In this document: positions 5,384-59,367 of the stretch, one piece after another
How the letters are laid out: the number at the start of each line of letters is the position of its first letter
How positions within the stretch are numbered: position 1 is the stretch's first letter
Origin: Candidatus Woesearchaeota archaeon
Lineage (GTDB): Archaea; Nanobdellota; Nanobdellia; Woesearchaeales; DSVV01
Assembly: GCA_016192995.1 (NCBI GenBank)
Contig: JACPTB010000006.1
Span: forward strand, 69,687 to 133,686
DNA: 64,000 nt
Direction: 5' to 3'
Position numbers and translations under genes: made by a program
Notes under the pieces: model-generated
What the model was told of the DNA's origin: nothing
The model's database searches: none
Seen by the model: only the letters and a program-made list of their open reading frames with translations

Positions 5384-5545
5384 GGCTCTGCCCCGAATCT
5401 CGGCATAGCCTCGGTTTTGGTGCCGTGATTATCCCCCTTGTTTATAATAAGGAAAAAATTCCCATTGGAATTCCCTTTTTTCTCACTTATTAATTAGAAG
5501 GATAATCACAGGTATGGCACCAAAAACTACATTCGGGGCAGAGCC
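5384..5545 (+). mobile_element. Family A palindromic element, copy A1 (MITE-like)
   Basis: 162 bp imperfect palindrome with 15 bp terminal inverted repeats GGCTCTGCCCCGAAT/ATTCGGGGCAGAGCC. The 7 bp sequence ATAGTTC flanks it directly on both sides (5377-5383 and 5546-5552), a perfect target-site duplication that includes the stop codon of the gene before it. Inner paired arms are TTTTGGTGCC/GGCACCAAAA and GTGATTATC/GATAATCAC. The left arm carries the extra module CTCGGCATAGCCTCGG. No coding capacity. It lies just upstream of the tRNA-Trp promoter. Confidence 0.85.
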
Positions 5546-6992: not shown

Positions 6993-7317
6993 GTACGTAA
7001 TAAGTCTGGGGTTTTAGCGCCTACATTCTTGGTTCTGTCCTGAATGAAGTTTTTGGTGCCATGCTTGTGATTATCCTTCAAATTAATACGTGGGAAAAAA
7101 GGAAATTACAATGGGAATTTTTTCCTTGTTATAAATAAGTGAGATAATCACGGCACCAAAATCGAGGCTATGCCGAGATTCAGGACAGAACCCCATTTTG
7201 TGAAGCTCTTCTTAAATTCACTTTGGGGATTTTTCGGAGTGCCAGAGAGAAAAATCCAATCGAAAACCACTTAAAAAGCTGAACCGGCGCTAAAACTAAA
7301 GAAGACTTATTACGTAC
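6993..7317 (+). mobile_element. Core-loop element, family B copy B1, interrupted by A3
   Basis: Outer arms GTACGTAATAAGTCT and AGACTTATTACGTAC pair, as do GTTTTAGCGCC/GGCGCTAAAAC. The core contains GTGAAGCTCTT, the hairpin GGATTTTT-CGGAGTGCCAGAGAG-AAAAATCC, and AAGCTGAACC. A complete family A element (7031-7192) interrupts the left arm between 7030 and 7193. Without it the element is about 163 bp, close to the other B copies. Its right end supplies the first base of the stop codon (7317-7319) of the gene to the right. Confidence 0.85.
7031..7192 (-). mobile_element. Family A element copy A3, nested inside B1
   Basis: 162 bp with termini GGTTCTGTCCTGAA/TTCAGGACAGAACC, compensatory relative to A1 (two base-pair changes kept paired). 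The subterminal module CGAGGCTATGCCGAG and the inner GTGATTATC/GATAATCAC arms are present. Flanks CATTCTT (left) and CCATTTTG (right) may be a degraded target duplication. Motif strand is minus relative to A1. Confidence 0.85.
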
Positions 7318-8048
7318 TATTCAAAAGTAAAACTCCATTTATTTTGTGCGTTAAGAACTCCTTCTCTTATATTTCCATTTCCGTCCCGATAAAAGAAGGT
7401 AATTTGAAAAGGCTCAAAAATTTGAAAAAAATTATGCACTTTCCGGGCAAAAATATAGCTTTTTTTGCATGTTTTTTGAAGATTGCAATCTAAACTGAAT
7501 TTTCCTCGTGAGCTTACATGGTTTTGTCCATAACCAGGTTCAAATTCAAAAACATCATAAGATAATTTCCCAACACCATCTTCGTCATAGAGATCAATAA
7601 CAAAATTAATCTCTCCAATTTCAGGGTATATGTTATAAGTTCTTTGTAAATAGACTTTTCCTTGCGGATTGTGGTCTTGGGTAAGTCTTTTATCAGTGTT
7701 TGTTGGATAAAAATTATAATTGAACCCGCCTTGGCGATCTACATATTTTGGTCGTACGCCCCATTTGCTTTCAGTCTGCACAGGTCTTTTTGAATCCCAC
7801 TCTGTAGCATCATAATCTACTCCATAAGGTTGAGAATATTGATTTCCTGCAGTATTTTGATAGAATCCAACACTATTAGTTCTTTTACTTTGATCAGGCG
7901 CTACATAATGCCAGTCATAAACGACATTTCCTGTTATCTCTGCGTTCTGTTGTGTTGTTTTAGAATAAGTTTTTATGACTATGAACATAATAATAACTAT
8001 GATCAATATAGCTACTATTGCTTTAATAGCACTGTAGTCCTTTTTCAT
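7317..8048 (-). CDS. Membrane-anchored protein of unknown function
   Basis: About 243 residues from the ATG at 8048, which has GAGG a few bases upstream. One N-terminal membrane helix (about 8-28, IKAIVAILIIVIIMFIVIKTYS) is followed by an aromatic-rich, probably extracytoplasmic domain with many Tyr/Asn/Gly (DYDATEW, GGFNYNFYPTNT, EINFVIDLYDEDGVGKLSYDVFEFEPGYG). The second half has a beta-sandwich look with one pair of cysteines (SLDCNLQKTCKKS). I do not recognise the family. Its stop codon touches the end of element B1, so the C-terminus may have been changed by that insertion. Confidence 0.6.
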   Translation of the reverse strand: MKKDYSAIKAIVAILIIVIIMFIVIKTYSKTTQQNAEITGNVVYDWHYVAPDQSKRTNSVGFYQNTAGNQYSQPYGVDYDATEWDSKRPVQTESKWGVRPKYVDRQGGFNYNFYPTNTDKRLTQDHNPQGKVYLQRTYNIYPEIGEINFVIDLYDEDGVGKLSYDVFEFEPGYGQNHVSSRGKFSLDCNLQKTCKKSYIFARKVHNFFQIFEPFQITFFYRDGNGNIREGVLNAQNKWSFTFE

Positions 8049-8105
8049 GAACATCCTCTTTTTATGTTGTATTTGGAATGTTATTATTTATAAATATTGC
8101 TGTAA

Positions 8106-18062: not shown

Positions 18063-19430
18063 ATGAAATTATTTGGAACATCAGGGATACGTGGATACAC
18101 CGTGGATTGTGGAGAAACAGATTATGTTATTCTGTCAGATGAATTCTGTTATGCAATTGTCAAAGCATTTATTCAGCATCTTACTAATCAAGGAATAAAC
18201 AAGGGAACTATTGCTGTGGGAAGAGATCTCAGAGCAACAAGTGAACATATTCAATCCATCATTATGCAAAGTATTGTTGATCAAGGATGGAAACCAATTA
18301 ATTGTGGAATTACGCCAACACCTGCATTAAATTATTATGTAAAAAATTCTGATTGCAGTGGTGGAATCATAATTACTGGCAGCCATATCAAAGCATCAAT
18401 GAATGGCTTAAAATTTATGAATGACAACGAAGAAATATCTAAAGCAGAAGAAAAACAGATTGAAGAACTTTATGATCAGGTTATTCTCCATTCATCACTA
18501 AAACTTGTTGATGTGCCAACAAGTTTTAGTGAAACTAACAATGCAAATGAAGCATATAATGGATTTCTCAAAAAACATGCTATGGACTACAGTAATTTAA
18601 AGATAGTGTTGGATGTAAGGAATAGTTGTCATCAAAAAACAATGCAGTTTATATTAAAGGATGCAGGAGCAAAAGTGTTCTTGCTAGCTAAAACTAAAAA
18701 CGAATTTATTGCGCTTGACACTGAATCAACTGAATACGAGAATCTTGAATTAAAGCAGGCAATCCTTGAAAACAATGCCGATATAGGGATTACTTATGAC
18801 AGTGATGGTGACAGGCCAGCATTTTATGATGAACAAGGTAATTTGATTCAAAGTGATGTGGTTGCCGCAGTTATTGCAGAGTATCTTGAAGCAAAGAATA
18901 TAGCAACTCCTATTAACTCTTCGAGCGTTATTGATACGCTTGGAAAAAAAATTTACCGTTGTAAAGTTGGTTCTCCTTATGTTATTGCAATGATGAAGCA
19001 GTACAACTGCAGTTTTGGTTTTGAAAGCAATGGCGGTTGTATTTTTGCAGATGTTATGTATACAAGGGATGGCGGTTATCCAACAATTATTATCCTTAAT
19101 CTTCTTGTTAAAAAAAAGCAGAAACTTTCTGAGCTTATTGCTCAATATCCGCGTTTTTTTATTTTCAGAACAAAAATAGATTGTCCAACAAGGCACAATG
19201 CTTTTATCGTACATTCGATAAAACAAAAATATCTCTCTGAGAACAAACAAATTGATGATCTTGATGGTTTAAAAATATACATGAATGAAAGTACATGGAT
19301 GTTATTCAGACCTTCATCAAATGCTCCTGAATTCAGAATATTTATTGAATCTAACGTTGAAGAAGAAACAAAAAGATTAGCTCGAAATGCAGTATCATTA
19401 GTGAAAGAATTATTAAATCAGGCAGTGTAG
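18063..19430 (+). CDS. Phosphohexomutase (ManB/GlmM family)
   Basis: 455 residues. GTSGIRG at the N-terminus, phosphoserine loop IIITGSHIKASMNGLKF (usually TASHNP; the serine is kept, the Asn-Pro is not), metal loop TYDSDGDRPAFYDE, sugar-binding GFESNGGCIF and C-terminal phosphate loop MLFRPSSNAPEFRIFIES. It interconverts hexose-6- and hexose-1-phosphates, feeding the nucleotidyltransferase at the start of the operon. The final residues (Ala-Val-stop) are supplied by a palindromic element inserted at the 3' end, so the native C-terminus was probably slightly longer. Confidence 0.88.
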   Translation: MKLFGTSGIRGYTVDCGETDYVILSDEFCYAIVKAFIQHLTNQGINKGTIAVGRDLRATSEHIQSIIMQSIVDQGWKPINCGITPTPALNYYVKNSDCSGGIIITGSHIKASMNGLKFMNDNEEISKAEEKQIEELYDQVILHSSLKLVDVPTSFSETNNANEAYNGFLKKHAMDYSNLKIVLDVRNSCHQKTMQFILKDAGAKVFLLAKTKNEFIALDTESTEYENLELKQAILENNADIGITYDSDGDRPAFYDEQGNLIQSDVVAAVIAEYLEAKNIATPINSSSVIDTLGKKIYRCKVGSPYVIAMMKQYNCSFGFESNGGCIFADVMYTRDGGYPTIIILNLLVKKKQKLSELIAQYPRFFIFRTKIDCPTRHNAFIVHSIKQKYLSENKQIDDLDGLKIYMNESTWMLFRPSSNAPEFRIFIESNVEEETKRLARNAVSLVKELLNQAV

Positions 19431-19582
19431 AAAATGTAGTTTTTGGCATCTTTTTGTGAGGCTCTTCAAGTTTAAGCATGGGGATTTTTCGGAGTTCCAG
19501 AGAGAAAAATCCAATAAAATATACTCTTAACAAGCCGAACTGATGCCAAAACCGAGGCTATGCCGAGATTTTCTACACTGCG
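19421..19582 (+). mobile_element. Chimeric core-loop element (family C)
   Basis: Terminal stem GCAGTGTAGAAAAT/ATTTTCTACACTGC. The next module is family A-like: GTAGTTTTTGG on the left and CCAAAACCGAGGCTATGCCG on the right. The inner core is B-like: GTGAGGCTCTTC, hairpin GGATTTTT-CGGAGTTCCAGAGAG-AAAAATCC, and AAGCCGAAC. ATTAAATCA flanks it on both sides (19412-19420, 19583-19591), a 9 bp target duplication. The left part lies inside the phosphohexomutase coding sequence and provides its stop codon. Confidence 0.8.
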
Positions 19583-26801: not shown

Positions 26802-26954
26802 GTACGTATTAAGTCTTTTTCAGGTTTAGCGCCAGTTCAGCTTCAAAAGTAATTTAACATTGGATTTTTCTCTCTGGAACTCCGAAAAATCCTCAATGCG
26901 CTAAATCTTAGAGCTTCACAAAAGTAGGCGCTAAACCACAGACTTAATACGTAC
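26802..26954 (-). mobile_element. Core-loop element, family B copy B2
   Basis: 153 bp with termini GTACGTATTAAGTCT/AGACTTAATACGTAC and inner arms GGTTTAGCGCC/GGCGCTAAACC. On the minus strand the core reads GTGAAGCTCT, hairpin GGATTTTT-CGGAGTTCCAGAGAG-AAAAATCC, AAGCTGAAC. It begins 5 bp after the tRNA-Leu. Flanks CTCATATC and CTCCATATC look like an imperfect target duplication. Confidence 0.85.
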
Positions 26955-31398: not shown

Positions 31399-31561
31399 GG
31401 CTCTGCCCCGAATCTCGGCTTACGCCTCGGTTTTGGTGCCGTGATTATCTCACTTGTGTATAACAGGGAAAAAATTCCTATTGGAATTTCCTTTTTTCCC
31501 ACGTATTAATTTGAAGGATAATCACCAGCATGGCACCAAAAACTACATTCGGGGCAGAGCC
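31399..31561 (+). mobile_element. Family A palindromic element, copy A2
   Basis: 163 bp, termini GGCTCTGCCCCGAAT/ATTCGGGGCAGAGCC. A perfect 8 bp target duplication TTTATTTA flanks it (31391-31398, 31562-31569). The subterminal module is CTCGGCTTACGCCTCGG, with a variable loop but kept stem compared with A1. It sits between eL42 and the ProRS promoter. Confidence 0.88.
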
Positions 31562-52097: not shown

Positions 52098-52251
52098 GTA
52101 CGTAATAAGTCTTCCTTTAGTTTTAGCGCCGGTTCAGCTTTTGAAGTGTGTTTCAATTGGATTTTTCTCTATGGAACTCCGAAAAATCCCCGATGTTGAC
52201 TAAGAAGAGCTTCACAAAAGTAGGCGCTAAAACCCAAGACTTATTACGTAC
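52098..52251 (-). mobile_element. Core-loop element, family B copy B3
   Basis: 154 bp, termini GTACGTAATAAGTCT/AGACTTATTACGTAC. The minus strand carries GTGAAGCTCTTC, hairpin GGATTTTT-CGGAGTTCCATAGAG-AAAAATCC, and AAGCTGAACCGG. A 14 bp direct repeat flanks it with one mismatch: CTCCAAGAGTAAAG (52084-52097) and CTCAAAGAGTAAAG (52252-52265). The left repeat includes the stop codon of the DsbA gene. Confidence 0.88.
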
Positions 52252-58802: not shown

Positions 58803-58965
58803 GGCTCTGTCCCGAATGAAGTTTTTGGTGCCATGCTGGTGATTATCCTTCAAATTAATACGTGGGAAAAAAGGAAATTCCAATAGGAATTTTTTCTTTC
58901 TTATAAACAAGTGGGATAATCACGGCACCAAAACCGAGGCGTGAGCCGAGATTAGGGACAGAGCC
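58803..58965 (-). mobile_element. Family A palindromic element, copy A4
   Basis: 163 bp; termini GGCTCTGTCCCGAAT/ATTAGGGACAGAGCC (one mismatch). Module CGAGGCGTGAGCCGAG keeps the GGC/GCC stem with another loop. Flanks AAATAC and AAATCT are at best a partial duplication. The outer flank AGCCGTATTT/AAATACGGCT extends the palindrome on the left. Between tRNA-Ser and a small zinc-ribbon gene. Confidence 0.82.
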
Positions 58966-59213: not shown

Positions 59214-59367
59214 GTACGTATTAAGTCTTCTTCAGGTTTAGCGCCAGTTCAGCTTCAAAAGTAATTTAACATTGGATTTTTCTCTCTGGAACCCCGAAAA
59301 ATCCCCGAAGTAAAGCTAAGTAGAGCTTCACAAAAGTAGGCGCTAAACCACCAGACTTAATACGTAC
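59214..59367 (-). mobile_element. Core-loop element, family B copy B4
   Basis: 154 bp, termini GTACGTATTAAGTCT/AGACTTAATACGTAC. The minus strand core is GTGAAGCTCT, hairpin GGATTTTT-CGGGGTTCCAGAGAG-AAAAATCC, AAGCTGAACTGGCGC. A perfect 8 bp duplication TTAAATCC flanks it (59206-59213, 59368-59375). Confidence 0.9.

Follow-up and report, generated by a model that had tools for sequence, protein, structure and literature searches.

The window analyzed here, a 64,000-nucleotide stretch from the genome of a Candidatus Woesearchaeota archaeon (1.62 Mb in 16 contigs, with an S_layer_C protein, TATA-type promoters and a gene content that mark it as archaeal), contains at one locus an inverted-repeat element lodged within another, which raises the question of whether this arrangement records an insertion that took place here or is a unit that has itself been moving around the genome. 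A preliminary description had recognized a complete element of family A inside an element of family B, and the ends, lengths and register of the two proved to be just as it described (Table 1): removal of A leaves a B of 325 - 162 = 163 bp, whose arms are in register with those of the three uninterrupted B copies of the window, which are 153-154 bp long. The outer arms are paired at 15/15 positions in the composite and likewise in A; folded as DNA, the composite scores 8 standard deviations better than shuffled sequences, and it contains no open reading frame (ORF) of 100 aa in its 325 bp (the units being 154-163 bp). A occupies a short unpaired joint, reading TACTTTTGT in intact copies, that links stems P1 and P2 of the B core, so that the fold of both elements can persist in the composite. 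To the right of the composite, a 245-aa ORF (window 7317-8054, minus strand) ends at the last base of the composite, and its stop codon may have been supplied by the insertion.

Table 1. Coordinates of the composite, its parts and related elements (window positions, unless a position is preceded by the name of another stretch)
Feature	Position	Strand	Remarks
Composite element: B (GTAC ends, 8-bp-duplication class) holding A	6993-7317	+	325 bp
B outer arm, left	6993-7007	+	GTACGTAATAAGTCT
B outer arm, right	7303-7317	+	AGACTTATTACGTAC
B core stem P1, 5' strand (B inner arm)	7011-7021	+	GTTTTAGCGCC
B core stem P1, 3' strand (B inner arm)	7286-7296	+	GGCGCTAAAAC
Presumed 9-bp target duplication, left copy	7022-7030	+	TACATTCTT (intact B: TACTTTTGT)
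Presumed 9-bp target duplication, right copy	7193-7201	+	CCATTTTGT
Complete A element	7031-7192	+	GGC-type ends, 9-bp-duplication class
A arms	7031-7045 / 7178-7192	+	GGTTCTGTCCTGAAT / ATTCAGGACAGAACC
A core, a divergent version of folded core K	7048-7162	+	29 bits, E 6e-4
Remainder of B core K	7192-7287	+	70 bits, E 1e-14; model positions 12-107
Core hairpin P3	7227-7257	+	conserved loop CGGAGTGCCAGAGAG
Uninterrupted B	26802-26954	+	adjoins tRNA-Leu gene
Uninterrupted B	52098-52251	+	
Uninterrupted B	59214-59367	+	8-bp duplication TTAAATCC
Free A	5384-5545	-	TATA-like motif 16 bp off on gene-start side; nearest ORF start 198 bp
Free A	31399-31561	-	duplication TTTATTTA; TATA 14 bp off; start codon 44 bp off
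Free A	58803-58965	+	
Insert TTGCCG..TTTATA in P3 loop	33082-33296; L018 14828-15070; L021 11505-11746; L023 19362-19584; L019 14389-14603		
45-nt double hairpin in P1	L028 13678-13877; L017 19225-19432; L021 1549-1760		TTAAAAATCACTATTTTTAATCCCTGAGATCCTTCGGATTCAGG
IS5-like elements with GGC ends	L165 1467-2370; L176 1142-2031; L179 1073-2148; L169 1076-2093		

A and B are related and belong to a single superfamily of gene-less inverted-repeat elements of about 155-165 bp, both of which bear versions of one folded core. Each family has at least 40 matches in the genome at E < 1e-35, the candidates numbering 98 for A and 191 for B. By end type, a census of the window together with about 389 kb of further stretches from the same genome yielded 42 GTAC, 40 GGC and 13 AGAGAACTTTGC elements (the last 10-11 under stricter filters), along with some others. 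GTAC ends are bordered by an 8-bp duplication in 27/42 cases and by a 9-bp duplication in none, and GGC..AAAT ends by a 9-bp duplication in 27/40, with offset controls at 0-1 for both (end type versus duplication length, Fisher 3e-13); ends of the type GGCGTTATTG.. are accompanied by 8-bp duplications, as are the GTAC.. ends. The ends are interchangeable, and they dictate the length of the duplication. When a 19-base B pattern was run against the GTDB r220 contigs, excluding the source genome, it returned 2 matches, approximately the chance expectation, and in viral contigs a core pattern matched coding DNA that lacks the fold.

A structure written by hand on an alignment of 15 cores defines the stems P1, P2 (with tandem G.A) and P3; paired cells make up 97.6% of this alignment and 19 of the 25 pairs are changed on both sides. 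A covariance model built for the core returned it from 51/353 genomes of the order, though it gave no hit in any of the 10 relatives belonging to the same family. Across 140 aligned cores, two-sided stem changes were counted in 852 cells as against 244 in shuffles, although this alignment was fitted to the model, so that the counts lean towards it.

The left junction between A and B occurs exactly three times in the genome, at C2:16910, C6:76697 (the present locus) and C6:155180, with no occurrence of the reversed-pattern control, and this rules out a unique recent nested insertion at this locus. For the same reason, the expectation that related strains would hold an uninterrupted B here is not supported. 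All three composites carry a paired and compensated change in the A arms, CTGTCCTGAAT/ATTCAGGACAG, which is found in 0/19 of the other TCTG-arm A elements sampled, and all three have the altered left flank TAsATTCTT in common; these shared features are most readily understood as inherited marks of one event, and we infer a single origin for the three. Two of them are complete, each with a 163-bp B part, and the third is without its right end; one of the two complete composites has an additional 63-nt hairpin within A. The A core of the present copy is 89-90% identical to those of the other two composites, which share 97% with each other, and it is 112/112 identical to that of a free A with different arms (L030:2026), an identity that points to exchange as the source of the odd core. 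The best reading of these data is that A entered B once, that the composite then spread, presumably by way of its B ends, and that internal segments were later exchanged. Accordingly, the earlier proposal that A transposed after B was in place stands insofar as A is mobile and once entered a B, but not as a record of that event at this locus, the identical junction being present three times. The counter-possibility then raised, of one fixed larger element in many copies, captures part of the picture, in that there are three copies, two with an identical 163-bp B part.

At this locus the outer ends of the composite lack a clean duplication (4/8 match) and the flanks of A at the junction with B match each other at only 3/9 positions; in the C2 composite, the second complete one, the outer 8-bp flanks TTTATTTT/TTTAGTTT match at 7/8. 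The flanks of A had been put forward as a possible decayed duplication, for which the comparison of TACATTCTT with CCATTTTGT is weak evidence taken alone; however, the excess of 163-154 = 9 bp fits the size of the duplications found at A-type ends elsewhere (the above 27/40), and hence A is presumed to have generated a 9-bp duplication in B.

Nesting is common in the superfamily. A clear parallel to the composite is provided by L018 5311-5646, where an A with an 8-bp repeat at its ends is held by a GGCTTCATCC-type element whose own outer 9-bp duplication is perfect, and at L026 12104-12425 a AGAGAACTTTGC element lies within a B. Three elements display stacked ends, with GGCACAATCC outside AGTGATATTGCG; there are chimeras with A ends and B cores, and also a B shell around an A-type core. 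In yet other cases A and B adjoin, with one target in three copies (TSD-A-TSD-B-TSD), namely L030 15036-15359 (target GATAGCCA/GATAGCCAA), L017 13784-14106 and L023 10196-10519. Smaller modules also recur: two different types of element carry an extra insert, TTGCCG..TTTATA, at one and the same position in the P3 loop, and a 45-nt double hairpin breaks stem P1 at one fixed place in different backbones (Table 1). In L104 1483-1740, from a genome (G257) of another family of the order, the 63-nt hairpin and A-type end known from the present genome come after the same AGAGAACTTTGC element, indicating that modules are shared between families of the order. Separately, several contigs (C5, C6, C31 and C82 of genome G139; C81 and C119 of G245) break off about 10 bases or less from core copies of equal score, which suggests that near-identical elements recently expanded in these two genomes.

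We then observed that the elements occupy a characteristic position with respect to genes. On 38/61 gene-start sides a TATA motif starts at a distance of 13-20 bp, with a peak at 14-17 bp, as opposed to 2/77 gene-end sides (Fisher 1e-15), and the start codon usually lies about 44 bp away. Elsewhere in the order, a set of 31 elements with unambiguous duplications has 27 motif starts within 14-17 bp, every other position receiving 0-2. The preferred distances are 14 and 16 bp for GTAC ends (8-bp class) and 15-17 bp for GGC ends (9-bp class); as the longer duplication goes with the longer distance, the far edge of the duplication is nearly constant, at 6-8 bp from the TATA box. The composite is an exception to this usual target, being flanked by convergent gene ends with no promoter. 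Elements 14-17 bp upstream of a TATA-like motif are found beside gene starts at window positions 31399-31561, 5384-5545 and 19421-19582, and in L017-L036 and L084-L151, which cover this genome and others of the order. Transcription from the TATA box into the element can be ruled out, because the box is that of the neighbouring gene and points away from the element.

The enzymes that might mobilize such elements were sought in this and related genomes. Genomes of the order that carry the core also encode IS5-like elements of 0.9-1.1 kb, whose ends (GGCTCTGTCCTGAATC, GGCTCAGTAGAAAATC and GGCTCTGTAGAAAAC) match the GGC ends (Table 1), and which have 8-9 bp duplications and a TATA motif at 14-17 bp. 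The GGC ends, the 8-9 bp duplications and the TATA-proximal target are shared with these IS5-like insertion sequences of related genomes (models NF033579, PF01609), whose transposases lie just under the NCBIfam cut-off: the three full-length proteins reach 127-139 bits against NF033579 (E 1e-37 to 2e-40; cut-off 140), and they score above the cut-off of PF01609. The present genome has no match to DDE_Tnp_1, IS1595 or ISKra4, and an IS5-like transposase query of it gave a chance-level match only. For the GTAC ends, neither this genome nor the others of the order yielded an autonomous counterpart. Other candidate drivers were rejected: IS1595 has no representative in this genome; ISKra4 occurs in just 3/338 genomes, this one not among them, and the ends of the order's single intact ISKra4 (GGGTGCATGTAG) are different; a DDE_Tnp_1 is present in G057, but its ends differ from those of that genome's elements; and lone shells in G141 could not be taken as the ends of a long insertion sequence, since no transposase was recognised next to them.

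Two other histories for the composite need to be weighed against a single entry of A into B. Three independent insertions of A at the same hot spot in three B elements might be envisaged, given that the site is the unpaired joint of P1 and P2, that further inserts, namely the 63-nt hairpin in A and the P3-loop insert, likewise turn up repeatedly at set points of the fold, and that the A core here stands apart from those of the other two composites. We nevertheless consider this very unlikely, as independent events would each have had to involve the arm change confined to the composites together with the same altered left flank, and the divergent core is accounted for by exchange with a free A. 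Somewhat less improbable, but still unlikely, is an origin of the composite in which two related foldback elements recombined, or a template switch joined them, without any transposition of A. The superfamily is indeed mosaic, combining A ends with B cores, B ends with A-type cores and stacked ends; the flanks of A make a poor duplication; and the insertion site within B is without the TATA motif usually chosen by A-type elements. Against it stand the integrity of A up to its terminal base, the 9-bp excess, which is of the size made by A transposition, and the nested pair at L018 5311-5646, which has repeats at both levels.

A different kind of alternative concerns the fold itself, which could act in a transcript if the elements were structured RNAs, either retro-elements or riboregulators. 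The massive covariation, the conserved loops and the tandem G.A motif are all features that such RNAs would display. However, G-T accounts for just 28/3312 standard pairs (0.85%) in the cores compared to 13/162 (8.0%) in the folds predicted for tRNAs of this genome, a control of six sequences only, folded by energy; no family model of Rfam 15 is matched by the elements; and the duplications and matching insertion sequences are of the DDE-transposase type. We consider an RNA role very unlikely, about as much so as the repeated use of a hot spot. Instead, pairing is strictly Watson-Crick and one-sided intermediates are all but absent, which points to upkeep at the level of DNA and suggests that the fold is constrained there and not in RNA, which might come about, for example, through cruciform or hairpin repair or whole-arm replacement.

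Returning to the single entry of A into B, we propose that the locus is very probably a propagated two-in-one module made up of MITE-like transposons that are gene-less, folded and members of one superfamily. An A element, with GGC ends and mobilized by an IS5-like transposase generating 9-bp duplications, would have inserted into the unpaired joint of P1 and P2 in a B with GTAC ends and 8-bp duplications; with its outer ends still usable and its fold intact, the composite would then have been copied to at least three sites, followed by swaps of internal segments between it and other copies. By such nesting one core could come to lie behind different ends.

Miniature inverted-repeat transposable elements (MITEs) usually have only their ends in common with one parent insertion sequence. 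Like prokaryotic MITEs (reviewed in PMC10969869; archaeal examples are described, for instance, in Sulfolobus islandicus, PMC3718332), the present elements are short and gene-less, with terminal inverted repeats, target duplications and many intergenic copies, and their GGC ends have insertion sequences with the same ends in related genomes. They differ from usual MITEs in that a long folded core has been preserved throughout an archaeal order in combination with three end types, and in the propagation of nested composites. As regards the target, the bacterial p-MULT group (TnGBS, ISLre2 and ISKra4), inserting at a fixed 15-17 bp upstream of the sigma-A -35 element, comes closest (PMC3942029). 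The elements work like p-MULT in keeping a set distance from a core-promoter element downstream of them, but they are not p-MULT, which uses bacterial promoters and a different transposase superfamily, as opposed to the archaeal TATA at 14-17 bp and IS5-like enzymes here. The bcr repeats of Bacillus cereus are also dispersed, of 100-400 bp and with mobile features but no transposase gene (PMC6542083); they are tied to TTTAT motifs and not, as here, to 8/9-bp duplications at TATA boxes. The open-access literature yielded no paper on MITEs in DPANN or Woesearchaeota, most of the subscription literature lying outside the search.

The main interest of the composite lies in promoter targeting, exchangeable ends and a strictly paired core. 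Tentatively, and as a conjecture that we would at present sooner doubt than accept, the folded DNA core (P1-P3, with tandem G.A and the conserved P3 loop) might be the heritable unit across the order, changing transposases by nesting and outer-end swaps and kept in strict Watson-Crick pairing by a DNA-level process, with all end types setting the edge of the duplication 6-8 bp short of the TATA box, where the archaeal promoter complex has its upstream border, possibly via TBP/TFB. The elements offer a natural record of gene-less elements changing transposases by nesting, and their covariation in the near absence of G-T pairs is a warning against calling a conserved fold RNA. Targeting of transposons by promoter complexes is known from Ty3 of yeast and TnGBS of bacteria; with elements found across an archaeal order at a fixed distance from the TATA box, it becomes testable in archaea.
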